From positions 1,116,001 to 1,180,000 of the forward strand of contig JBFLJU010000001.1 of the NCBI GenBank assembly GCA_040743155.1: a stretch of 64,000 nucleotides of DNA, given 5' to 3'. The position numbers and the translations under genes were made by a program. Below, piece by piece: positions 1,361-53,579 of this stretch. This DNA comes from Cycloclasticus sp. (GTDB lineage Bacteria; Pseudomonadota; Gammaproteobacteria; Methylococcales; Cycloclasticaceae). The notes below the pieces were generated by a model. It was not told where the DNA came from. It searched no databases and saw only the letters and a program-made list of their open reading frames with translations. Position 1 is the first letter of the stretch; each line of letters begins with the position of its first letter.

Positions 1361-2965
1361 TTAAGCTAACTTAAAGCCCTCATAACCATTTGCGGCCTTT
1401 TCAAAAATAATATCTCTATAAGCCCCGCAACCGCCAACATACACCATAAACACCTTAGGCTTACCTGGGATATTTGCTCCCATATACCAAGAATCTGCTT
1501 GGGGAAAAAGTGTCGTATCGGCCAATTCCACGGTATGTTTGACCCAGTCATTTTCATGCACTAAATCTGCTTCAATTTCACTGATTTTTTGCTGGTTCAT
1601 TTGTTCAATACAAGCCGCTATCCACTCACAATGACATTCGATAGAAACAGGCATGTTTGATAAGACAGACGGGCTTTGCGGTCCTGTCACCGTAAACATA
1701 TTAGGAAACCCGTGCACCGTCAAACCTAGGTATGTACGTGGCCCATCTGACCAACAGTCTTTTAAATCTTGCCCATTTCGCCCCTTAATACCCATCTTGA
1801 ACAAAGAGCCCGTAAACGCATCGAAACCTGTCGCGTAAATTAAAACATCAAACTCAAAACTCTGTTCTCCCGTGTCCAAGCCGGATTCTGTTAACGTTTG
1901 AATCGGCGCACGCTTGATATCAACCAAGGTGACATTGTCGCGATTAAACGCTTCGAAATAATTAGTTTCACATGGTTGGCGTTTTATTCCATACAGCTGG
2001 TCTTCTTGTGGGCAAAGTAACTCCGCAATTTGTGGGTCATTCACGCGTTCGCGAATTTTTTTACGAAAAAAATCAGCCGCCGTTTTGTTAGCCGCTTTGT
2101 CAAACAATATATCTTCATAACTAGCCATCCAAATACCAAACCCTTTGGTATCCCAAAGCTGTTGATAATGAGCGTCCCTGTCTTCTGCGGAGTCGGCCAA
2201 TGCAGAAGGTCTTACCCCTTCGAATGACATCCCTGCATAGGAACTTCTTTCTACCTCACGACGCGCATCATAATTTGCCTTTATTTCACGCTCTTCATCG
2301 GCTGTCATTGGGCCATTATGCAAGGGGCAGGTGTAATTTGCCGTTCGTTGAAATACCGTTAAGCTGTCACATTGTTCTGCAACCACTGGTATAACTTGAA
2401 TAGCTGTTGCGCCGGTTCCTATGATGCCAACTTTCTTTCCTTTAAAGTCAACGCCTTCAGCCGGCCATTTCCCTGTTATGTAAACATCACCTTTAAAAGC
2501 ATCTTGTCCCTCTATGAAGGGGATATTAGCCGACGATAAGGTACCAGATGCTGGGATGAAATACTGCGCATTGAATTGCTGACCGTCCTTTGTTGCTATA
2601 TTCCAGCGTTTTGTTTGCTCATCATAAACCGCCGATTCCACAGTTGTATTAAGCTGGATATCTTTGTTTAAATCAAAACGCTCTGCTACATGTTCTAGAT
2701 ACTGCAGTATTTCAGGCTGCGAAGCGAACTTTTCAGACCACTGCCATTCCTGCTGTAATTCCTTAGAAAAAGAAAATGAATATTCATGACTTGCAACATC
2801 GCAACGTGCACCGGGATATCTATTCCAATACCAAGTGCCACCAACACCACCAGCCAAATCCACTACAGCAACGTTTAACCCTTGCTTATCACGTAATAAA
2901 TGCAATAAATACATGCCGGCAAAGCCAGCCCCAACGATTAAAACATCAACTTTTTTTATGGTCAT
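1361..2965 (-). CDS. Baeyer-Villiger monooxygenase (tandem paralog)
   Basis: A 534-residue flavoprotein monooxygenase, normal length for cyclohexanone-monooxygenase-type BVMOs (about 540). FAD motif GAGFAG is near residues 12-17, and the second nucleotide-binding motif GTGATA lies near residue 185. The fingerprint reads FKGDVYITGKWP, with Ile where the family has His, as in its tandem copy downstream. Other family blocks (GGTWYWNRYPG, YATGFDAFTGS) are intact, so this is a full-length enzyme and not a decayed one. It lies 77 bases after an acyl-CoA dehydrogenase and 69 bases before the second copy, at the end of the atu-like operon. Likely role is oxygenation of a ketone intermediate of terpenoid breakdown; loss of the fingerprint His could change rate or NADPH handling. 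Confidence 0.88.
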   Translation of the reverse strand: MTIKKVDVLIVGAGFAGMYLLHLLRDKQGLNVAVVDLAGGVGGTWYWNRYPGARCDVASHEYSFSFSKELQQEWQWSEKFASQPEILQYLEHVAERFDLNKDIQLNTTVESAVYDEQTKRWNIATKDGQQFNAQYFIPASGTLSSANIPFIEGQDAFKGDVYITGKWPAEGVDFKGKKVGIIGTGATAIQVIPVVAEQCDSLTVFQRTANYTCPLHNGPMTADEEREIKANYDARREVERSSYAGMSFEGVRPSALADSAEDRDAHYQQLWDTKGFGIWMASYEDILFDKAANKTAADFFRKKIRERVNDPQIAELLCPQEDQLYGIKRQPCETNYFEAFNRDNVTLVDIKRAPIQTLTESGLDTGEQSFEFDVLIYATGFDAFTGSLFKMGIKGRNGQDLKDCWSDGPRTYLGLTVHGFPNMFTVTGPQSPSVLSNMPVSIECHCEWIAACIEQMNQQKISEIEADLVHENDWVKHTVELADTTLFPQADSWYMGANIPGKPKVFMVYVGGCGAYRDIIFEKAANGYEGFKLA

Positions 2966-15613: not shown

Positions 15614-16468
15614 CTGAACAAATATAGATACGACCCAGTTATAACAGGAATATTCGCTGGAATAAGCGCATTAATTCTATGGTATTTTTCTGCATTGGCT
15701 ATTGATGAAAATACGCTGCCAGCTCATTACGACTATATAGCTCAATTCTTCTCTGTTCTTTTAGGTGCCTTCGTCGCTTTTCGCTTCAATGCTTATCTAG
15801 AATCGAGAAAGTCTGAAAATGAAAAGTCAAAGTTTTATCTTGAGTTCTGCTCGGATAACTATGATACGTTTTACTCTACTCTAGATGGCCTAAATAATAG
15901 TCGTGTTGACTGGATATACGCAGCTAGGCTTCTCATGGAAACAAAGTCTCTAGAAGATGAGATTACTACCGCAGAGCATCAAACAGTTCTTGGCATCAAA
16001 AAAATGAAAGTTAGGCACTCACTGCTTAATCAGTTCCAGGTGATTGATGAAGAGAAAAATACAGAAAGCCCACTCCCTGTATCATTCTTTTATGGTATTC
16101 CTAATTGGCGGGAATACTTCGATGCGCCAAATGATGCAGCTTGCGAATCAATGAAGTTTGATCGGCCTACAACGTTTGGGGAGTATGAAGTTCCTAAGAT
16201 GGAGCGGCTGCCTATGTTGCAGGAACAAAGTGTTTATGCGGTATTTGAATTTCTATCTTACCCAGAAAATTTTGAAGATCACCTAGATAAGTTAAATTAC
16301 AACGCAGAGTGGCCTCAACGAGTAAAAAGCTTTGAGGGTGAAGGTGCCTATAAATATGTGAAGCATCGAAGAGACTATGTGCACCCTGAATGGGGCATAT
16401 CTAAGAAAAAGCAGGCAAAGCTCGCAAAAATTATCAAAGATGGTGGTATTACCAGTAGTGGACAATAA
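15614..16468 (+). CDS. integron cassette protein with two N-terminal membrane segments, unknown function
   Basis: The open frame runs through both hydrophobic stretches. An ATG-type start is absent; GGAGG at 15603-15607 lies six bases before an in-frame CTG at 15614, giving about 284 residues. A TTG at 15695 would cut off the first membrane segment. Segment one is around residues 8-30 (ITGIFAGISALILWYF) and segment two around 40-58 (FSVLLGAFVAFRF), followed by a charged soluble domain of about 220 residues. The gene begins 25 bases after the attC core and ends just before a second attC half, the classic cassette layout. I do not recognise the family. Confidence 0.62.
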   Translation: MNKYRYDPVITGIFAGISALILWYFSALAIDENTLPAHYDYIAQFFSVLLGAFVAFRFNAYLESRKSENEKSKFYLEFCSDNYDTFYSTLDGLNNSRVDWIYAARLLMETKSLEDEITTAEHQTVLGIKKMKVRHSLLNQFQVIDEEKNTESPLPVSFFYGIPNWREYFDAPNDAACESMKFDRPTTFGEYEVPKMERLPMLQEQSVYAVFEFLSYPENFEDHLDKLNYNAEWPQRVKSFEGEGAYKYVKHRRDYVHPEWGISKKKQAKLAKIIKDGGITSSGQ

Positions 16469-24532: not shown

Positions 24533-24562
24533 AAAAGGCCGAACATAATTGTTCGGCCTTTT
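24533..24562. terminator. bidirectional terminator
   Basis: AAAAGGCCGAAC / GTTCGGCCTTTT with a six-base loop; it has an A run on one side and a T run on the other. It lies between the convergent DUF2130 and alcohol dehydrogenase genes and can serve both. Confidence 0.9.
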
Positions 24563-24584: not shown

Positions 24585-25640
24585 TTACGGCGTGAGCACC
24601 GCTCTTCCAACCACTTTGCCATCTTCTAATTCGTTAAGAATATCGTTGGCTGAATCCAGCGGGTATGTTTTTGTCGGCAAGGCCGGCACTAGGCCTTTAT
24701 GAGCCAACGCCATCAGTTCGGAAAACTCAGCCAAACTACCGACATAACTGCCCATAATCGTGACGGCTTTTACTGGAATAAGCGGTAATGCCCAAGGTGC
24801 TGAACCCCCAAATAAGCCAACAATCACCATTTTCCCACCTTTAGCAACGGCATTAAAGGCCAAAGATGCCGTACTTTCAGCGCCAACTAAGTCAACCGTA
24901 GCGAGCACGCCTTTTCCACCAACCGCCGCCTGAACTTGAGCCACTGCATCTTCGGCAGCGCCGTCAATGGCAACACTGGCACCCGCTTTAAGCGCAGCTT
25001 CACGTTTAACAGGGTCTAAATCAACCACTACTGGCGGTAAGCCCCCCATCGCTTTAACTAAACCAACCGCCATTAAACCCAAGCCACCAACGCCAATAAT
25101 AACCACCGGCGCTTTAGCCAATGTGCTTTCTACTTTTTTAAGCGCTGAATACGTCGTTAAACCTGAACAGGCTAATGGCGCGGCTATTTCTGGTGCCATG
25201 CTACCTATATCGAACAAATAACGAGGGTGAGGAATTTTCATTTGATCGGCATAGCCACCATCAATATGCATACCAACATATCGCGGCGCTGAACAATAGT
25301 TTTCACGCGCATCTTCGCATTGATGACATTCACCACAACCTTGCCACGGGTATACCACATAATTTTTTGTGCGATCAAGTTCACCCGCGTCAGCCCCAGC
25401 ATCAACAACCATTCCAACCGGCTCATGCCCCATCACCAACGGTAACTTCATGCCACGTTCAGCAAAACTAAGTGTTTGACCACCGCCTAAGTTATAGCAA
25501 CCTTCACGAATATGTAAGTCACTATGACATACTCCATTCGCGGTAATTCGAAGCAACACTTCGGTACCTGAGACAGCTAAGTTTTCGCGTTCTTCTCCGA
25601 CAACTGCACTACCAAATTCATTTAAAGACTGACATTTCAT
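24585..25640 (-). CDS. zinc-dependent medium-chain alcohol dehydrogenase
   Basis: A 351-residue MDR-family dehydrogenase. Catalytic zinc ligands are seen in GVCHSD (Cys38) and GHEPVG; the structural zinc site is CGECHQCEDARENYC; the cofactor fold has GVGGLG. It oxidises an alcohol to an aldehyde or ketone with NAD(P). I start it at the ATG at 25640, preceded by GAGAGGAAATACAA, rather than at a longer frame from 25679. It is the last gene of the esterase-BVMO-synthetase-ALDH operon. By analogy with the cyclohexanone (Chn) route it would oxidise the hydroxy acid released from the lactone. Confidence 0.87.
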   Translation of the reverse strand: MKCQSLNEFGSAVVGEERENLAVSGTEVLLRITANGVCHSDLHIREGCYNLGGGQTLSFAERGMKLPLVMGHEPVGMVVDAGADAGELDRTKNYVVYPWQGCGECHQCEDARENYCSAPRYVGMHIDGGYADQMKIPHPRYLFDIGSMAPEIAAPLACSGLTTYSALKKVESTLAKAPVVIIGVGGLGLMAVGLVKAMGGLPPVVVDLDPVKREAALKAGASVAIDGAAEDAVAQVQAAVGGKGVLATVDLVGAESTASLAFNAVAKGGKMVIVGLFGGSAPWALPLIPVKAVTIMGSYVGSLAEFSELMALAHKGLVPALPTKTYPLDSANDILNELEDGKVVGRAVLTP

Positions 25641-25656
25641 TTGTATTTCCTCTCTT

Positions 25657-27099
25657 TTAAATGGCGCTTTGACTAACAAATTTTACGATCCGATAAGCAT
25701 CAAGCCCTTCGTACCCACCTTCGCTGCCATACCCTGATTGGCGACGCCCTCCGAGTGGAGAATCTAGAAAAACAACTGGGAAACCATTGATTCCAACTTT
25801 ACCCGAATCTAAATCCCTGCCTAAGTTATCAATCGTTTCCTGAGAACCACTAAACGCATATGAAGCCAGTGCAAAATCGGTATTGTTTGCCGTCTCAATA
25901 GCTTCTTCATAGGTATCAAATTTATTGATGATCGCGATAGGACCAAAGGGCTCTTCCTGCATTATTCTTGCAGTTGATGGCACGTCGGCCAACACGGTTG
26001 CTTCATAAAAATTCCCTGCACGATCGATGCGTTTACCGCCGCTCATCAAACGCGCTCCTTTGTCGACAGCATCTTTTACTAGTGCATCTAATTCACCAAT
26101 TCGGCGTGGGTTTGCTAATGGCCCCATTTGAGTATCCGCATCCAAACCATTGCCGATACGAAGCCCGGCAAATTTTTCTGTAAAGCCCTGTAAGAACTGA
26201 TCATAAACAGCTGCTTGCACAAAGAATCGAGTAGGTGAAATGCACACTTGCCCTGAATTACGACTTTTTGTCATCACCGATAAATCAGTGGCTTTTGCTA
26301 TATCTGCATCATTAAAAATCAACACCGGCGCATGGCCGCCCAACTCCATGACACATGGTTTAGCTTGATCACCGGCCAATGATGCTAGTTGTTGGCCCAC
26401 AGGCGTTGAACCAGTGAAGGATATTTTTTTAATCACTGGTGACTCAATTAATGTCTTGCTGATAAGCGCTGAGTCACCCATCAATATATTCACAACGCCC
26501 TTAGGTAAACCCGCTTTATCAAGCGCATCCACCATCGCCATAAATGAAACCGGCGTTTCCTTTGCAGGTTTAATAATGACCGAGCAGCCAACAGCCATCG
26601 CCGAGGCCATTTTACGTGTCGCTAATGAGGCCGGGAAATTCCATGCAGGAAACGCGGCAACGGGGCCAATCGGCTCCTTCTTAACTGTTCTATCAACGAA
26701 ACCATTCATTTCTGGCAAGGTGCGGTCGTTATGCTCGGCGGCGGCCGTTGAACACCACTCCAATAAACACGCGCAATTTTCAACTTCTCCTTTCGAGTCA
26801 GCCAGAGGTTTACCATGCTCCATCGTCATACAGCGTGCCGTGTGCTCAGCATTCTCACGAATGATGGCCGCTGCGCGGTGCATAATATCAATACGTTCGT
26901 CGTAGCTGGTTTCACGCCATATTTTAAAACCTGCCTCTGAAGACGCTAATGCACGAGCTATTTGTTCCTCGTCTGCAAAAGGAAATTTGGCTAATACTTC
27001 ATCCGTTGCTGGGTTTAATACCTCACCATAACGGCTAGCTTGCGTAATCCATTCGCCATCAATATATAAGGCGGGTGTCGTGTAATCAGTGTTTTCCAT
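25657..27099 (-). CDS. NAD(P)-dependent aldehyde dehydrogenase (semialdehyde dehydrogenase-like)
   Basis: A 480-residue ALDH. The NAD-binding block is FTGSTPVGQQL, the general base Glu is in MELGGHAP, and the catalytic Cys is in SGQVCISPTRF; the C-terminal EEPFGPIAII block is also present. The style is that of succinate- and other omega-semialdehyde dehydrogenases. The start is the ATG at 27099, eight bases after AGGAG; a longer frame to 27147 would overlap the previous gene. It is co-directional with the alcohol dehydrogenase (16-base gap), so the two together turn an omega-hydroxy acid into a dicarboxylic acid. Confidence 0.87.
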   Translation of the reverse strand: MENTDYTTPALYIDGEWITQASRYGEVLNPATDEVLAKFPFADEEQIARALASSEAGFKIWRETSYDERIDIMHRAAAIIRENAEHTARCMTMEHGKPLADSKGEVENCACLLEWCSTAAAEHNDRTLPEMNGFVDRTVKKEPIGPVAAFPAWNFPASLATRKMASAMAVGCSVIIKPAKETPVSFMAMVDALDKAGLPKGVVNILMGDSALISKTLIESPVIKKISFTGSTPVGQQLASLAGDQAKPCVMELGGHAPVLIFNDADIAKATDLSVMTKSRNSGQVCISPTRFFVQAAVYDQFLQGFTEKFAGLRIGNGLDADTQMGPLANPRRIGELDALVKDAVDKGARLMSGGKRIDRAGNFYEATVLADVPSTARIMQEEPFGPIAIINKFDTYEEAIETANNTDFALASYAFSGSQETIDNLGRDLDSGKVGINGFPVVFLDSPLGGRRQSGYGSEGGYEGLDAYRIVKFVSQSAI

Positions 27100-27139
27100 T
27101 CTTTGTTCTCCTAAAATAATACGTTTAATGAGTGTTTGT

Positions 27140-29221
27140 TTATTCATTACTTATGATTAAGGCATCGAGAGCAATCACGTTGTTGTTGGTTGCTCGTAAT
27201 GGGTTTACTTCGATGCTGCTAATGTGACTGACGTTATTTACGGCTAATACCGACAGGCGGCTAATCGCATCTGCTGCTGCATTCAAGTTGATTGATTGTT
27301 GCCCACGCGCACCTTGAAAAATGGCTGCACCACGTAATGATTGCAGCATTGATAATGCCCTCTCAGTACTAACCGGTGCCAACGACAGGCGGACATCTTT
27401 CAAAATTTCCGTATAAACACCACCAAGACCCACCATGATAATGGGCCCCATTACGGGGTCACGCTGTGTGCCAATAATAAAATCAACCCCGTCGCCAATC
27501 ATTGGGCTGATCAGTAGGCCTTCTATTTTTGCATTGGGTTCTTTTTCACGAATCGTTTTAAGCATCAATTCTGCTGCTTCACGAACCGCCTTTCCACTCA
27601 TCAAGTTCAGTGCCACGCCGCCTACTTCTGATTTATGAGCAATATCCGGCGAAACGATTTTCATCACGACAGGAAAGCCGATCTTAATGGCGCTGTCGCA
27701 TGCCTCTTGCGCACCAGTGACCAGCTCTTCTTTTGGAATAGGAATGCCCGCTCGTTCTATTAGAGACTTTGCTTCAGCCTCACCTATTTTTTCAACCGGT
27801 AATACGATATCGCCAATATCGGGGATCTCACCGTCTTCTCGATCCGACTGGTTGAATGTCGTATTGAACTTTGCCAACGCCGATAAAGCCACCACCGCTC
27901 GCGATGGGTCTTCAAACACCATGATGCCAACGGATTCATATTTTTCTTTTACCTCCTCCGTTGTTTGACCGATGACTGCAAACGGTTTATTGCGCCCTTT
28001 TATGCCATCACTTAAGGCATTAAATAGTTTTTCGCCATGCGCTGGCGAGCTTAGCCACGAGGTAAAAAAAGCAACTAATAAGTCATAGTGTCCTTCATCA
28101 ATCATGGCCATTAAATTCTCACTGACCAGTGAAAAATCATTTAATGCATTGCCTGTTATATCAACTGGGTTACGTGGCGAACAAAGAGGGTTACGTTCAA
28201 TCAGCCGGTCTTGTGTGACTTGCGGCATTGCTGGCACGGGAATACCCTGCTCTTCGGCCGCATCAGCCATCAAAACACCCGCACCACCGGATACCGTTAG
28301 AATCCCTAACTGATCACCCTTGGCGCGTGGTGACACACTAAAAGCATAAAGAATATCGAACATTTGCTCAGTCGTTCGGGCGCGTTGGGCACCGTATTGA
28401 TCAAGGAGTGCTTGGAAGCTGGCGTCAGATCCGGTCAATGAAGCGGTGTGCGACTGCACTGCTTCAGAGCCCACTTCGGAAACGCCTACTTTCATAATAA
28501 CAACCGCCTTGCCGGCAGTTCGAGCCTTTTTCAGCGCTCGAATTAATATGTCCGGTTTTTTAACGCCTTCCATATAACAGCCGACCACATCAACCGTATC
28601 AGAATCGATCAAATACTCGAGACATTCTGCGACCGTTAAATCCGACTCATTACCCGTGGATATCCACTTTGAAACACCTAAGTGACGAGATTTAGCCATC
28701 GTCAACAAATGCGTGCCGTACGCACCTGACTGAGTAATCAAGCCAACTCTACCCGCTTTTGGAAAGCCGCCTTCGAGACCCGAGGTAAACGTAGGACAGT
28801 TGCCGATGTCGCCATTGTATAGGCCTAGGCAATTAGGCCCTAAAATACGCATACCATAGCGTTTAGCAATGTCATCCACTTGCTGCTGAAGTGCATCACC
28901 ACTATGGCCAATCTCAGAAAAACCAGCTGAAAAAAGCGCGATCGCCTTCACGCCCTTTTCTCCACACGCCGTTAGCGCATCCGCCACCATCTTGGCTGAA
29001 ATCGCCAAGATGGCTAAATCGACAGTCCCTGGAATAGATGCAATATCTGAATACGCTTTTAAACCCTGAACTTCATCTCTATTCGGGTTTACAGGGTAAA
29101 TACGTCCTTTAAAACCAGCCTTTAGATAATAATCTATTGGACGGCCACCGATGCGTGCAGGGTTTGACGATGCACCAATAACGGCAACCGAGGCTGGTTC
29201 AAATAATGCCTTCAAACTCAT
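27140..29221 (-). CDS. ADP-forming acyl-CoA synthetase (fused alpha-beta)
   Basis: A 693-residue acetate-CoA ligase (ADP-forming) family protein. N-terminal CoA-binding domain (SVAVIGASSNPARIGGRPI), succinyl-CoA-ligase-like middle with the phospho-His region (VQSHTASLTGSDASF), and a C-terminal ATP-grasp domain from about residue 470 (FPVVMKIVSPDIAHKSEVGGV). It forms an acyl-CoA with ATP giving ADP and phosphate. Placed between the BVMO and the aldehyde dehydrogenase, it probably activates an acid made in this operon. A shorter relative without the ATP-grasp half is at 52.2 kb. Confidence 0.85.
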   Translation of the reverse strand: MSLKALFEPASVAVIGASSNPARIGGRPIDYYLKAGFKGRIYPVNPNRDEVQGLKAYSDIASIPGTVDLAILAISAKMVADALTACGEKGVKAIALFSAGFSEIGHSGDALQQQVDDIAKRYGMRILGPNCLGLYNGDIGNCPTFTSGLEGGFPKAGRVGLITQSGAYGTHLLTMAKSRHLGVSKWISTGNESDLTVAECLEYLIDSDTVDVVGCYMEGVKKPDILIRALKKARTAGKAVVIMKVGVSEVGSEAVQSHTASLTGSDASFQALLDQYGAQRARTTEQMFDILYAFSVSPRAKGDQLGILTVSGGAGVLMADAAEEQGIPVPAMPQVTQDRLIERNPLCSPRNPVDITGNALNDFSLVSENLMAMIDEGHYDLLVAFFTSWLSSPAHGEKLFNALSDGIKGRNKPFAVIGQTTEEVKEKYESVGIMVFEDPSRAVVALSALAKFNTTFNQSDREDGEIPDIGDIVLPVEKIGEAEAKSLIERAGIPIPKEELVTGAQEACDSAIKIGFPVVMKIVSPDIAHKSEVGGVALNLMSGKAVREAAELMLKTIREKEPNAKIEGLLISPMIGDGVDFIIGTQRDPVMGPIIMVGLGGVYTEILKDVRLSLAPVSTERALSMLQSLRGAAIFQGARGQQSINLNAAADAISRLSVLAVNNVSHISSIEVNPLRATNNNVIALDALIISNE

Positions 29222-29263
29222 AGCGCTACCGGTTACTTTGCAGCGCTTTCTTAAGCACTGACT

Positions 29264-30901
29264 TTATAGCTCACTTGAATGCTTAAACTTAAAGTTTTGA
29301 TAACCGCTTGCGGCTTCTTCATTCAAGACGTTTGTATAGTTCCCAAGGCCCGCTAAATAAAACTGAACTGAACTCTCTCTGCCCGGAATATTAGTACCAA
29401 AAATCCATGACTCAGCCTTTGAAAATAAAGTCGCATCGGCAATTTCTTTACATGTATTTGTCCAATCATTTTCGGCATCATGAGTCGGCTCTGCCGTTAC
29501 TTGGCCTTTATCTCGCATCTCTTTAATAAAATCTGAAATCCACTCAACTTGCACTTCAATACTTGGCGGGAGATTGGTGAACGGTCCGTTTGGCCCTAAA
29601 ATCATGTGCATATTTGGGAAACCAGCACTCGACACACCTATGTAACTCGTTGGCGCATGCTCCCACTTGTCTTTCATCTGTACGCCGTCACGACCGCGAA
29701 TATCAATCTTGGTATAGTTACCATCAACGGAATCAAAACCTGTTGCATACACAAGAACATCTAATTCATGCTCGCCATCTTCAGTCAACACACCGTTCGG
29801 TGTAATCTCAATAATAGGGTGAGCCTTTACATCCACTAGCGAAACGTTATCGCGGTTGTAGGTTGCGTAGTAACCAGAGTCACACAATGGACGTTTTGCG
29901 TACAGGTCGTAAGGCTTTAATTTCTCTGCCGTCTCGGGGTCGTCAACAATTTCATCAATTTTCTTACGAATAAACGTACACGCAGCTTCATTTGACCCTG
30001 CGTCAACGGCGATATCACTAAAGGTTTCAAACATAAAGCGGAATCCACCCCCACTGTTCCATGCCGCTTCAAAGACTTTGTCTGTTTCTGCTACTGGCAA
30101 GCCAGCAGCAGGCACAATACTTTCTTCAAAACCAAACGCGACCATTGAGCCTTTAATTTGTTTCCAACTAGCGTCGTAATTCGCTTTAATATCTTTAGAA
30201 AAATCTTCCGATATTGGTCCATTACCAATAGGCACCGTATATTGCGGAGACCGTTGGAACACCGTCAAATGACCCGCCGTTTTAGCCGTTTGAGTAATGA
30301 ACTGAGTACCGGTTGAACCTGTTCCAATTACGCCCACACGCTTTCCTGAGAAGTTTACGCCTTCGTGTGGCCAGTTAGCGGTATGGAACTGTTGACCCTT
30401 GAACGTTTCTCGACCTTTAAAGTTGGGGACGTTTGTAGCCGATAACAGCCCTAAACCAGTGACAAGGTGTTGCGCAGTTACCTTATCCCCTTTATCCGTG
30501 CTTATCTCCCAAAGGTTTGTGCTTTCATTAAAAACAGCAGACGTTACTTTTGTATCAAATTGGTAACTTTTACGAATTTCGTAGCGGTCAGCAAAATGAT
30601 TAAGGTATTCTAAAATTTCAGTCTGATTCACATAGCGGTTCTTCCAAGTCCATTCTTGAAGAAGCTCTTTATCAAACGAGTAACAATAGTAAAAACTTTC
30701 CGTGTCTGACAAAATTCCCGGGTAGCGGTTTGAATACCACGTACCACCAACATCGCCATCCTTGTCATAACACTGCACGCTCATGCCTAACTCATTACGC
30801 AGTTTATGCGTCATGTACATTCCACCAAACCCTGCACCAATGACAACGGCATCAAAATCCGCAGATGAATTTTTTGTACCGCCATTTACTTTATTACTCA
30901 T
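29264..30901 (-). CDS. Baeyer-Villiger monooxygenase, canonical fingerprint
   Basis: A 545-residue cyclohexanone-monooxygenase-type flavoprotein. FAD motif GAGFGG near residue 23, GGTWYSNRYPG, the complete fingerprint FKGQQFHTANWP, and NADPH motif GTGSTG are all intact, so it should convert a ketone to an ester or lactone. GGAGAG lies just before the ATG. It is preceded by an HSL-type hydrolase, which would open the lactone. It differs clearly from the two BVMOs at the left edge, whose fingerprint His is Ile. Confidence 0.9.
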   Translation of the reverse strand: MSNKVNGGTKNSSADFDAVVIGAGFGGMYMTHKLRNELGMSVQCYDKDGDVGGTWYSNRYPGILSDTESFYYCYSFDKELLQEWTWKNRYVNQTEILEYLNHFADRYEIRKSYQFDTKVTSAVFNESTNLWEISTDKGDKVTAQHLVTGLGLLSATNVPNFKGRETFKGQQFHTANWPHEGVNFSGKRVGVIGTGSTGTQFITQTAKTAGHLTVFQRSPQYTVPIGNGPISEDFSKDIKANYDASWKQIKGSMVAFGFEESIVPAAGLPVAETDKVFEAAWNSGGGFRFMFETFSDIAVDAGSNEAACTFIRKKIDEIVDDPETAEKLKPYDLYAKRPLCDSGYYATYNRDNVSLVDVKAHPIIEITPNGVLTEDGEHELDVLVYATGFDSVDGNYTKIDIRGRDGVQMKDKWEHAPTSYIGVSSAGFPNMHMILGPNGPFTNLPPSIEVQVEWISDFIKEMRDKGQVTAEPTHDAENDWTNTCKEIADATLFSKAESWIFGTNIPGRESSVQFYLAGLGNYTNVLNEEAASGYQNFKFKHSSEL

Positions 30902-30938
30902 ATGTTCTCTCCAAAAAAGCTGTTTCTATTATTAGTAT

Positions 30939-31838
30939 TTATAAATTTGCGTACCATTCAGAGATTCTCTGAATTTCAGCATCCGCTTCTGGTGCTCTTC
31001 CAGCTAAAAACGGAAATACGTGTTGCATATCATCAACCACCGATAAGGTTGAATCTACCCCAGCATCGCTTGCCATTGAATGTAATCGACGCGAATCATC
31101 CACCAACGTTTCTACACTCCCAGCACATATATAGAGCGACGGATAACCGGTGAAATCAGCATACAGTGGGTTCGCTAATGAATCGTTGGCCTTACCTCCT
31201 TCGCCTAAAAACATACCAACCATTGCTTCAAGTACAGGGCGTTTAACCAGTGCATCTGTTGCTTCATTATGGTCTAGGCTTGCGCCACTCAATTCCATAT
31301 CTAACCAAGGCGAAAAGGCGATGACACTTTTCGGTAAAGGTAAGCCCAGTTCACGGAATTTCATGACCGAAGAGATTGCTAAGTTGCCACCGGCTGAATC
31401 ACCAATAGTCGTTATATTTTCCGGCTCAAAACCTCGACTTAGTAGCTCTTTATAAACGGCCGTCGCATCGTCAATTTGTGCTGGAAATGGATATTCTGGA
31501 GCAAGCCGGTAATCTAATACCAAAGCTATTGCTCCTAATGCTTTAGCCACATGACCCGCAAGTTTACGGTGGCTATCGGCGGAGCCAACCGCAAATCCCC
31601 CGCCGTGTGTATAAATGAGAATTTTAGAACTATCGCTGTCAACTGGTAACGCCCAAATTGCATTAATCCCAGCTATATTTTCATTTTTATAGCTGACGTT
31701 TTCTGGCTCCATCGTGGGCTTTCCCCACTCATCAAATAATGCGCGCATGTCGTCAAGCCCCATTTCTGGGTTTGCCGTCATACGATCCATCCAATTTTGA
31801 TAAAGAGCCCGTAAATAATCTGATTCTTTTGACGCCAT
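30939..31838 (-). CDS. HSL-family alpha/beta hydrolase, monoterpene epsilon-lactone hydrolase-like
   Basis: A 299-residue hormone-sensitive-lipase-type esterase. The oxyanion motif HGGG is near residue 78, nucleophile Ser lies in GDSAGG near residue 150, acidic residue in ETLVDDS and catalytic His in MQHVFPF. The overall length and N-terminus recall the Rhodococcus monoterpene lactone hydrolase MlhB and ChnC-type caprolactone hydrolases. First gene of the operon, directly before the BVMO (37 bases), with AGAGAGGA before its ATG. Reaction inferred: hydrolysis of the lactone formed by the BVMO to a hydroxy acid. Confidence 0.85.
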   Translation of the reverse strand: MASKESDYLRALYQNWMDRMTANPEMGLDDMRALFDEWGKPTMEPENVSYKNENIAGINAIWALPVDSDSSKILIYTHGGGFAVGSADSHRKLAGHVAKALGAIALVLDYRLAPEYPFPAQIDDATAVYKELLSRGFEPENITTIGDSAGGNLAISSVMKFRELGLPLPKSVIAFSPWLDMELSGASLDHNEATDALVKRPVLEAMVGMFLGEGGKANDSLANPLYADFTGYPSLYICAGSVETLVDDSRRLHSMASDAGVDSTLSVVDDMQHVFPFLAGRAPEADAEIQRISEWYANL

Positions 31839-31894
31839 TCCTCTCTTCCTCTTTTATATAATGATTAAGTCATCACCGTTTAAGACTTACCCAG

Positions 31895-31917
31895 CCATGC
31901 TATTTCATACCGCATGG
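31895..31917. repeat. inverted repeat in the hydrolase promoter region
   Basis: CCATGC / GCATGG with an 11-base spacer, in the 256-base gap between the AraC gene and the hydrolase operon. It could be a regulator site or a weak hairpin ending the AraC transcript. Nothing else is evident in this gap. Confidence 0.3.
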
Positions 31918-32094
31918 TCACCCGCCAAAGGTGATTGTGTTGTCTTTTTCCATAGCCAAAAAGCTCTGACACGCTCAACAAACAACGATAAACACCCAAT
32001 TATAATGACAGTAATTTTCATTCCTCTAGAACTATAAGAAGGGAGTTTAGAACAATCTTGCTGTATTTTTATCCTCGCTTAGTAAGCCACCTTT

Positions 32095-32889
32095 CTAATT
32101 TTTTAGCCGGCGCAAAGCAGCGGGCGTTGTTCCAACAAAGCGACGAATAACTCGCGTTAAATGACTTTGATCGGCAAAGCCACATTCTGATGCAATGGCC
32201 TTAATCGGCAACGGCGTTGTTGAAAGGAGTGTTAGGGCTAGATCAACCCGTTTTTTTATCACGTACGCGTGAGGTGAACAGCCGAACTCTTTAGAAAATT
32301 TACGACTAAAATGAAAAACACTCAAGTGCACCAATTCTGCTAATTCAGCCATTGAAATATTAAGGCCAATAGACTCTTCAATGAAATCACTAATCAGACG
32401 CTTTTGAGCGCCAGTAAAGCCGCCGTGTGATGCTTCATTAAACACGACATTCGAGTAACGTCGTAAGATGTGAACACAGGCTTGATTTTTTAACGCGTCG
32501 ACATACAGTTGAGTGCCAAACCCTCCCATCGCCAACTCTTTTTCGAGCTGCGATACCAGCATCGGCAAAACCTCATCTTCAGACCTAACGCAATCGGTCA
32601 ATGCTATGTCAGCAATGTCACGATTAAAAACGTCGCCAGCAACAGACGCAAGCGAGGCATGAGATAAATAAAGGTGTGAAACATCTATCGGGCTATCCCA
32701 TCTCCATTGTGACTCTTGCGCTCGTGTTAGCACAGAAACAACGCCCGGTTCAACTTGATGTTTTTCCCATACCTTACCGCTGCGTCGGCTCATACCAGAG
32801 CGCCGCCCCTTATACACGACAAACATATAATCACGCATAGTGGGAATAGCAACATCCAATTGAGGGTAGTGGTAACCACGCAGGGTCAT
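32095..32889 (-). CDS. AraC-family transcriptional regulator
   Basis: A 264-residue protein from the first ATG. The C-terminal double helix-turn-helix is clear (MAELAELVHLSVFHFSRKFSKEFG and IKAIASECGFADQSHLTRVIRRFVG). The open frame continues about 29 codons upstream to 32979 with sensible protein sequence (WIPGKVTFDSSVRAWDG), but without ATG, GTG or TTG; the likely start region has ATC/ATT after AGAGGGG. So either a rare ATT start (32976) is used or the original start codon has mutated. It sits just upstream of the hydrolase-BVMO operon on the same strand and is the probable activator. Confidence 0.82.
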   Translation of the reverse strand: MTLRGYHYPQLDVAIPTMRDYMFVVYKGRRSGMSRRSGKVWEKHQVEPGVVSVLTRAQESQWRWDSPIDVSHLYLSHASLASVAGDVFNRDIADIALTDCVRSEDEVLPMLVSQLEKELAMGGFGTQLYVDALKNQACVHILRRYSNVVFNEASHGGFTGAQKRLISDFIEESIGLNISMAELAELVHLSVFHFSRKFSKEFGCSPHAYVIKKRVDLALTLLSTTPLPIKAIASECGFADQSHLTRVIRRFVGTTPAALRRLKN

Positions 32890-33038
32890 GCCATCCCAAG
32901 CACGTACACTGCTATCAAAGGTTACCTTACCGGGAATCCAATGCTGGATTTTATCCGGCTCTACGAGTGTTTTAATGATTCACACCCCTCTTTATTTAAT
33001 GTTTTGTCGGCTGCCATCACCCATGCTATAAAAGCTAA

Positions 33039-33464
33039 TTATTTTCCTGCTATCTTTAAAAATGGCTCTGGCACTGGCGCTAATTTTCTAGTCTCGTAGT
33101 CCATAAAAACTATTCCAGTTTTCGCAACCGCCACGGTGTCCCCAGTTTGTTTATTGGTCATCTTATAAAAGAAGTCGCAACCTTTTGATGAAAAGTCACC
33201 CAGCGCTATTTCAACGACTAACACATCACCAAAATATGCTTCAGATCGATAATTAACAGCAATATCAGCCATGATAATGCCCTTCCCATCAACATCTAAC
33301 TCAGACATTCCATTCGCTTTAAAAAATTGTGCTCTAGCCTCATGGAGTAGAGAAATAATACTATCGTGCGCTAAATGATCCGCAAAATTAAGGTCAGTTA
33401 CACGAACAGAAAGCTCATGTTTGAATAATGTGTTGTCGGGGTACTGTATAGATATTCGCGCCAT
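33039..33464 (-). CDS. 4-hydroxybenzoyl-CoA-type acyl-CoA thioesterase
   Basis: A 141-residue hot-dog-fold thioesterase. The N-terminal VRVTDLNFADHLAHDSIISLLHEAR matches the active-site helix region of the YbgC/4HBT group (D in the DLN..DH stretch), and the central YRSEAYFGDVL is typical. It hydrolyses acyl-CoA esters, perhaps freeing CoA when an intermediate builds up. It sits between the terminator region at 33.6 kb and the AraC gene. Confidence 0.8.
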   Translation of the reverse strand: MARISIQYPDNTLFKHELSVRVTDLNFADHLAHDSIISLLHEARAQFFKANGMSELDVDGKGIIMADIAVNYRSEAYFGDVLVVEIALGDFSSKGCDFFYKMTNKQTGDTVAVAKTGIVFMDYETRKLAPVPEPFLKIAGK

Positions 33465-52223: not shown

Positions 52224-53579
52224 ATGTCTACTCTTAAATCGCTTTTTGAAGCAACTGCTGTCGCCATCGTTGGCGCGTCCAATAACCCACATAAAATTGG
52301 TGGTCGCCCAGTCGCTTATATGAAACGACTTAACTACCAAGGTAAATTAATACCGATCAACCCAAAAGCCGATAGCATTCAAGGTCTGCCTGCTAAACGC
52401 TCGTTATTGGAATTGGATGAAGTTGTTGACCTCGCTATTGTTGCCGTCCCCGACGCATTTGTAGAGCAAGTCATTAAGGATGGCCTTGCCGTTGGCATTA
52501 AAAACTTTGTTGTCTTTGCCTCAGGGTATGCCGAAACTGACCAGCAAGGCATTGAAAAACAACGCGCGCTACAGGCCTTGTTTGATACAACAACAGCCCG
52601 TCTGCTTGGGCCAAATTGTTTGGGGTTCATTAATACTGAAACTCAACTCGTCGCCTCCTTTACAACTGCAATGGAACAACACCCGCTTAAGGTAGGCGGT
52701 TTAAGTTTTGCCGGACACAGTGGCGCACTTGGCGCTTATTGGTTAGACAAAACTATTCGCGCAGACATTGGCGTTAGCAAATGGATTTCTAGCGGAAACG
52801 AGGCCAACTTGCCGTTAGACGAAATTGTTGAATATTTGGCGACTGACCCGCAGACATCCATTATTTCGCTCTATATTGAAGAAATTCGGCATCCCGATAA
52901 GTTTGAAAAAGCTCTCTTATTAGCAAAAAACAATAACAAACCGGTGATTGCTTTAAAGGGTGGAAAAACGGCCGCAGGCGCACGTGCAACAGCCGCCCAC
53001 ACCGCATCTTACCCTCTAAAAGGTGTTGATTATCAAGCCATCTTCGAACGTAGCGGAGTCACCGAAGTCAGTTCTCTCAGCGATATGATCCAATGCAGTC
53101 AATTTCTTTTAAATGGCCACAAATTGCTGGGTAATAAAGTGGGTATTGTTTCTATATCCGGTGGTGCAGGCGTTATGTTATGCGACCAATTAGAAGCCGC
53201 GGGATTATCAATCGCGCCGTTTAGTGAACCATTATGCTCTTCTGTAAAACCACTATTATCATCCTTTAGCGCCGTACAAAACCCGGTCGATTTGACCGCC
53301 GCGCTTGTTGCACAGCCCGACATGCTACGTGATGTAACCAAGCAACTCGTTGACTCGGGTGAATTTGACGCCGTCGTTATTTTTATGGGCTTAATGGAAA
53401 GCGTTGCTAAACAACTAACGGACGGTTTACTTCAACTTAAAAATAACCCGTCTTGCCCGGTCTTGCTTATTTGGATGGGTGGTCAAGCAACGCTGCTGTC
53501 GAGTCTTGTAGAGCACGGCATCTTGGTTTTTGAAGAAATCCCCGACTTAGTCAGCCTGTTATCTAACGTTAAAGCTTAG
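52224..53579 (+). CDS. ADP-forming acyl-CoA synthetase, alpha part only
   Basis: A 451-residue protein covering the CoA-binding domain (VAIVGASNNPHKIGGRPVAY) and the succinyl-CoA-ligase-like domains with the phospho-His region ATAAHTASYPLKGVDYQAI. It is collinear with the N-terminal two thirds of the 693-residue synthetase at 27.1 kb, but the ATP-grasp beta half is absent and no separate beta gene follows. It may need a beta subunit from elsewhere, or be a non-catalytic relative. Its stop overlaps the end of the convergent NUDIX gene by 11 bases. Confidence 0.82.
   Translation: MSTLKSLFEATAVAIVGASNNPHKIGGRPVAYMKRLNYQGKLIPINPKADSIQGLPAKRSLLELDEVVDLAIVAVPDAFVEQVIKDGLAVGIKNFVVFASGYAETDQQGIEKQRALQALFDTTTARLLGPNCLGFINTETQLVASFTTAMEQHPLKVGGLSFAGHSGALGAYWLDKTIRADIGVSKWISSGNEANLPLDEIVEYLATDPQTSIISLYIEEIRHPDKFEKALLLAKNNNKPVIALKGGKTAAGARATAAHTASYPLKGVDYQAIFERSGVTEVSSLSDMIQCSQFLLNGHKLLGNKVGIVSISGGAGVMLCDQLEAAGLSIAPFSEPLCSSVKPLLSSFSAVQNPVDLTAALVAQPDMLRDVTKQLVDSGEFDAVVIFMGLMESVAKQLTDGLLQLKNNPSCPVLLIWMGGQATLLSSLVEHGILVFEEIPDLVSLLSNVKA

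Follow-up and report, generated by a model that had tools for sequence, protein, structure and literature searches.

The stretch of DNA analyzed here (the window, 64 kb, positions 1116001-1180000 of a single-contig genome of 2,563,313 bases that is 99.94% complete) belongs to a Cycloclasticus-like bacterium and carries an operon built around a Baeyer-Villiger monooxygenase (BVMO) of the cyclohexanone monooxygenase (CHMO) type. Judging from its sequence, we consider it reasonably probable that this is an AraC-controlled catabolic operon resembling the Chn system, which would convert a cyclic ketone to an alpha,omega-dicarboxylate and activate it through an ADP-forming acyl-CoA synthetase (ACD), both substrates being putative. 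Five genes, encoding a lactone hydrolase, the BVMO, the ACD, an aldehyde dehydrogenase (ALDH), and an alcohol dehydrogenase (ADH), are intact and lie on the minus strand in the list of open reading frames (ORFs), with concordant Pfam assignments for all five. This arrangement, already proposed in the original prediction, is confirmed by the coordinates of the ORFs, by their intact motifs, and by its recurrence in relatives. The unit is larger than these five genes and extends upstream to a regulator gene, an operator-like site, and a thioesterase-like gene (32027-33464). Its components, in window coordinates and in the direction of reading, are as follows:

33039-33464, minus strand, hotdog acyl-CoA thioesterase-like gene (Pfam 4HBT_2)
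32095-32889, minus strand, AraC-family regulator in a ChnR-like position (Pfam HTH_18/HTH_AraC)
32027-32062, minus strand, operator-like site AGCAAGATTGTTCTA-N16-TTCTA in the gap between the AraC and hydrolase genes, with two TTCTA 21 nt apart
30939-31838, minus strand, HSL-family (GDSAG) esterase/lactone hydrolase, ChnC-like by context (299 aa)
29264-30901, minus strand, type I BVMO of the CHMO type (545 aa)
27140-29221, minus strand, alpha-beta fused ACD, the variable gene of the unit (693 aa)
25657-27147, minus strand, SSADH-like ALDH in a ChnE-like position (496 aa; likely start ATG 27099)
24585-25679, minus strand, zinc ADH in a ChnD-like position (364 aa from TTG; likelier start ATG 25640)
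24533-24562, minus strand, terminator-like hairpin directly after the ADH gene (12-bp stem, 6-nt loop, T run)

The intergenic gaps measure 37 nt between the hydrolase and BVMO genes, 42 nt between the BVMO and ACD genes and, using the likelier ALDH and ADH starts, 40 nt (ACD-ALDH) and 16 nt (ALDH-ADH). These short distances are compatible with one transcript, and the recurrence of the gene order and neighbors in relatives indicates that the grouping is not due to chance. The hairpin was not listed by the terminator scan, and neither terminator-like sites (10 found, 8.6 expected) nor promoter-like sites (9 found, 15.6 expected) were in excess in the scans.

By sequence comparison, the BVMO is assigned to type I and to the CHMO class, nearer to CHMOs than to phenylacetone monooxygenase, steroid monooxygenase, or OTEMO. 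Its two GxGxxG motifs and the signature FKGQQFHTANWP (FxGxxxHxxxW(P/D)) are intact, and it scored 734 bits against the solved CHMO of Thermocrispum (TmCHMO) and 703-715 bits against Rhodococcus-type CHMOs, compared with 488 bits for wild-type phenylacetone monooxygenase, 466-467 for steroid monooxygenase, and 424 for OTEMO. The named relatives closest by BVMO are a gammaproteobacterial metagenome-assembled genome (88% identity), Cycloclasticus sp. NAT157 (83%), and Cycloclasticus sp. 46_120_T64 (79%). In a 77-row BVMO tree, which has only the two other BVMOs of the window as outgroup and holds no row from the three other classes, the window groups with 46_120_T64 and the genomes labeled G029 and G004 (5 rows including duplicates, support 100), joined next by G005, G007, and locus L007 (8 rows, support 99). 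The hydrolase carries the HGGG and GDSAG motifs and the Abhydrolase_3 domain of the HSL/GDXG family, its nearest solved relatives being the esterases E40 (211 bits) and EstD11 (207 bits). The ELGG and GQVC motifs of the ALDH and the zinc cysteines of the ADH are also intact. In G005, the CHMO-like gene (L083, 9472-11100) is interrupted by an in-frame stop, while the neighboring genes are open.

The ACD shows the CoA-binding, Succ_CoA_lig, and ATP-grasp_5 domains and the two catalytic histidines of the ADP-forming family, within the motifs HTASLTG at 258 and HKSEVGGV at 529. It is colinear with the Nitrosopumilus 4-hydroxybutyryl-CoA synthetase (8wzu) over residues 6-676 (358.7 bits), and H258 and H529 correspond to H256 and H535, given as the phosphohistidine sites of that enzyme in an excerpt of PMC11494057. 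The score stays under the NCBIfam cut-off of every named member of the family, for instance 420.7 bits against 1300 for 4-hydroxybutyrate ligase. The neighborhoods of ACD relatives of about 40-45% identity (G216, G326, G555, G601, G687, and G785) had no common theme from which a function could be drawn. A separate ACD alpha-subunit-like gene, with CoA-binding and Succ_CoA_lig domains and no ATP-grasp domain, lies at 52224-53579 on the plus strand of the window.

In the proposed pathway, the BVMO would form a lactone from cyclohexanone or a closely analogous small cyclic ketone, and the hydrolase would open this lactone to an omega-hydroxy acid bearing a primary alcohol. The ADH and ALDH would oxidize this acid further, giving adipate or another alpha,omega-dicarboxylate, and the ACD would then form the CoA ester of the presumed acid for beta-oxidation, producing ADP via its two phosphohistidines. 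Since the ADH and ALDH need a primary alcohol, which cyclohexanone-type lactones yield and menthide does not, a Chn-like dicarboxylate route is the best reading of the gene set. The domains, BVMO scores, motifs, and related loci likewise lend support to the Chn-like logic with an ADP-forming synthetase that had been proposed originally. Compared with the Chn clusters of the Acinetobacter, Rhodococcus, and Polaromonas type (chnB, chnC, chnD, chnE, and chnR), the unit has the same CHMO-type BVMO, HSL hydrolase, ADH, ALDH, and AraC regulator; however, it adds the ACD, a co-travelling thioesterase gene, and its own operator-like site, and it contains no ChnA-like short-chain dehydrogenase/reductase (SDR). 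Pimeloyl-CoA synthetase PauA is an ADP-forming precedent for the activation step. Adipate activation by the ADP-forming succinyl-CoA synthetase of the reverse adipate pathway was rejected as a further precedent, as the literature consulted does not describe it and in one passage names those Tfu genes a thioesterase.

The comparison with other bacteria draws on 67 named BVMO loci, retrieved through exact 8-residue peptides of the window BVMO, which selects its closer relatives; several are short contigs. Sixty-four of these lie outside the Cycloclasticus group, 58 of them with more than 1.2 kb upstream of the BVMO, and counts were taken from tblastn because longest-ORF gene maps were unreliable at G+C-rich loci. 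At 32 of the 67 loci (29 of the 64 outside the group), the gene immediately preceding the BVMO, in the same orientation, encodes a hydrolase of 52-79% identity, and matches of at least 40% identity, scored at any place in the locus, were detected in the 64 for the ALDH (23 loci) and the ADH (16 loci). The BVMO is 66.8% identical to the sole BVMO place on plasmid 2 of Polaromonas JS666, which we take to be the CHMO gene cloned from that strain, and the hydrolase neighbor there is 64.3% identical. Cloning and assay of the JS666 CHMO are described in an excerpt of PMC3915288. An Acinetobacter lwoffii bin (L042) holds the BVMO (58%), ALDH (43%), and AraC (47%) genes together, with ADH (46%) and hydrolase (60%) genes farther on. 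Among eight plasmid regions, those of Roseibium and Sulfitobacter alexandrii combine the hydrolase-BVMO pair with pcaF (3-oxoadipyl-CoA thiolase) and an acyl-CoA dehydrogenase gene, and that of Roseibium has a CoA transferase as well, which points to an adipate route. The closest ALDH (64%) and ADH (73%) outside the group are on a Pseudosulfitobacter plasmid, together with a hydrolase (68%) and a BVMO (65%), in a cluster whose neighbors include biotin-carboxylase, carboxyltransferase, and HMG-CoA-lyase genes. As this plasmid ALDH is the sister of the ALDH in the window, the latter looks to be of ketone-pathway origin.

The upstream region suggests how the operon may be regulated. The AraC gene lies 256 nt upstream of the hydrolase gene, with the thioesterase-like gene further upstream, and an AraC match of at least 40% identity was found in 13 of the 64 outside loci. 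The operator-like pattern has a single match in the whole 2.56 Mb genome (reversed-pattern control, 0); with three mismatches allowed, it is still the sole match in the window, and 15 of 100 shuffles gave at least one match. The site is kept in all six group genomes having the AraC-hydrolase gap (G000, G004, G005, G008, G013, and G029) and was unmatched in the scanned chn-like loci outside the group. The AraC gene is not beside the operon in G006 and G007. The thioesterase gene is directly upstream in all eight group genomes with a hydrolase orthologue, that is, these two and the previous six (32 nt from the hydrolase gene in G007), and the remaining mapped loci of the group lack it. Taken with the rest of the interpretation, and at the same level of confidence, the operon would be controlled by AraC through this putative single operator, in response to a presumed effector.

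The ACD is the component of the unit that comes and goes between relatives. A CHMO of at least 68% identity is present in seven of 61 genomes (G000, G004, G005, G006, G007, G008, and G029), and orthologous ACDs (67-81%) in G005, G008, G013, G014, G017, and G029 in addition to the window. Four of these, namely the window and G005, G008, and G029, have the ACD gene within the ketone operon, separated from its neighbors by short gaps. The sole BVMO match of G013 is 44% identical; its contig stops just past the hydrolase gene, so that its CHMO may fall in an assembly gap. G014 and G017 lack a CHMO, their only hydrolase is a 41-42% paralogue elsewhere, and the loci read contain no AraC or thioesterase gene. 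In G014 (one contig, 99% complete), the order is CoA-transferase, enoyl-CoA hydratase, ACD, ALDH, and AtuD-C-E-F-A, and in G017 SDR and TauD genes lie between the ALDH and AtuD genes. Between these two genomes, dN/dS is 0.10 for the ACD and 0.04 for the ALDH (dS 1.1 and 1.3; dS against the window is near saturation), indicating purifying selection and therefore use of the ACD-ALDH pair without CHMO. In G001, the ALDH gene adjoins atu at a contig edge with no ACD there, which may have been cut off, and in G029 the operon continues into an SDR gene and AtuD. The window itself holds atu and liu clusters, the operon and atu being about 11 kb apart. The corresponding distance is 20 kb for G008, 31 kb for G007, and about 155 kb for G005, and in G004 the two are on separate contigs. 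In 19 genomes, ALDH and AtuC occurred together in nine, ALDH alone in one (G013, 87% complete), and neither in nine (Fisher p 1.2e-4), whereas CHMO and AtuC occurred together in six, CHMO alone in one (G006, 58% complete), AtuC alone in three, and neither in nine (p 0.02); both tests ignore kinship, although the genomes of the genus that carry AtuC are closely related to one another. The tie to atu proposed in the original prediction is partly supported, by way of the ALDH-ACD pair (G014 and G017, ALDH alone in G001, and G029, which runs into AtuD) and not of the BVMO. An AtuH-like AMP ligase was not found in G014 or G029 at E 1e-80, which makes the ACD a candidate acid-activating enzyme for atu there, and the ACD probably has a second aldehyde-to-acyl-CoA duty beside atu in relatives without CHMO.

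Two further observations concern other parts of the window. Two tandem BVMO-type genes (2-1360 and 1361-2965, minus strand) lie at the end of the atu cluster; they are 41-44% identical to the CHMO-like BVMO, the second being closest to steroid monooxygenases (584 bits) and phenylacetone monooxygenases (567 bits). Isoprenoid methyl ketones may be their substrates. Between a TauD gene and an alpha/beta hydrolase gene lies a 257-aa ORF with no Pfam match (15695-16468, plus strand).

Several results weigh against the proposed pathway. At 35 of the 67 named loci, some of them truncated, no hydrolase is directly upstream of the BVMO. The ketone operon of G004 and G007 consists of hydrolase, BVMO, ALDH, and ADH genes without an ACD, these genomes having only distant ACD homologues (31-33%), and the 64 loci outside the group yielded no ACD of at least 40% identity, nor did the eight plasmid regions yield any ACD match; outside the group there is thus no link of the ACD to ketones. 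CHMO-type enzymes take many ketones, so the class does not fix the substrate. There is no SDR (ChnA-like cyclohexanol dehydrogenase) within 24585-33464, which makes the unit Chn-like from the ketone on rather than a complete chnA-to-E cluster, and no P450 in the window genome. Together with the persistence of ACD-ALDH without CHMO in G014 and G017, these absences leave the description of the operon as self-contained unsupported: the complete ketone-to-acyl-CoA set is one of several assemblies, and the ACD is probably a lineage-specific add-on module whose partner is the ALDH and not the genes that open the ketone.

Other substrates have to be weighed against the cyclic ketone. Originally, a menthone-like substrate was proposed: the BVMO would form menthide, the hydrolase would open it to 6-hydroxy-3,7-dimethyloctanoate, and the ACD would hand this 3-methyl acid to AtuD/C/F/E. 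The presence of atu and liu in the same window, and of ALDH-ACD beside atu in G014 and G017, fits such a route, as does the opening of menthone-derived lactones by Rhodococcus MlhB, described in an excerpt of PMC7794910. Rhodococcus erythropolis DCL14 degrades monoterpene lactones by a route with the same logic of a BVMO (MMKMO) plus a lactone hydrolase (MlhB), and the structure of the menthone lactone is given in an excerpt of PMC4097962. However, on chemical reasoning, menthide opens to a secondary alcohol that is oxidized to a ketone, which would leave the ALDH without an aldehyde; the opened product of the DCL14 route has a secondary or tertiary hydroxyl, for which no ALDH step is expected, whereas the unit in the window has an ALDH. 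As the BVMO also scores with the cyclohexanone class and ACD-ALDH persists without it in G014 and G017, menthone is disfavored and appears highly improbable as the substrate. Acyclic ketones from subterminal alkane oxidation would fit the gene set equally well on paper, with the BVMO giving alkyl esters, the hydrolase a primary alcohol and acetate, the ADH and ALDH a fatty acid, and the ACD activating the fatty acid or acetate; the solved relatives of the hydrolase are esterases, and the ACD family includes acetate-CoA ligases. The BVMO class and the pcaF and CoA-transferase genes of related clusters speak against this possibility, which we regard as improbable.

The ACD-ALDH pair could also serve chiefly atu, converting a terpenoid aldehyde through its acid to the acyl-CoA in place of, or beside, the AMP-forming AtuH, and be merely located in the ketone operon. 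The position of the pair directly upstream of atu in G014, the lack of an AtuH-like ligase there and in G029, the ACD-free ketone operons of G004 and G007, and the co-occurrence of ALDH and AtuC agree with this view. Nevertheless, the ACD is embedded in the ketone operon with short gaps in four genomes, both the ACD and an AtuH-like ligase are present in G017 and in the window genome, and the nearest outside ALDH and ADH accompany a hydrolase and a BVMO. Moreover, G014, G017, and G001 cluster on the CoA-transferase tree (91/95), so that the loss of the ketone genes, and the retention of the pair, may be a single event. We therefore consider a chiefly atu-related role unlikely, though less so than the two routes above, and retain the Chn-like dicarboxylate pathway.

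An extension of that pathway, which we regard as improbable, would join the unit and the neighboring carboxylase clusters into one route for methyl-branched cycloalkanones. Here, 4-methylcyclohexanone, for example, would pass through 4-methylcaprolactone to 3-methyladipate, to be activated by the ACD; its 3-methyl group would block beta-oxidation and would be removed by the Atu/Liu carboxylase route. The occurrence of CHMO in six of nine AtuC-carrying genomes against one of ten without AtuC, and the carboxylase genes adjoining the Pseudosulfitobacter ALDH/ADH set, are consistent with this extension, and unlike menthone, such a substrate would leave a primary alcohol for the ADH and ALDH. Against it, just one of the 64 loci outside the group, L063, has a carboxyltransferase (LiuB-like) match nearby (seven of 64 if weak enoyl-CoA-hydratase matches are counted), and the idea that CHMO clusters are generally linked to carboxylases was accordingly rejected. 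On the opposite strand beside the ketone operon of G007 (L084, 1835-7428) are thiolase, ChsH2-like, CoA-transferase III, HMG-CoA-lyase-like, and AMP-ligase genes, and G006 also has an HMG-CoA-lyase-like gene beside the operon.

Cycloclasticus is known for the degradation of aromatic hydrocarbons. CHMO genes in this genus are already in print as gene annotation, as seen in an excerpt of PMC11409719, and no description of this operon was recognized in the literature searched, which mostly excluded subscription papers. The layout predicts a regulated cyclic-ketone pathway with ADP-forming activation, and names its putative regulator and a single candidate operator. It also shows that the activation step is exchangeable and that its genes share a location with atu. 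Should the methyl-branch extension be true, it would explain how the alkylated cycloalkanes of oil pass beyond the beta-methyl block.

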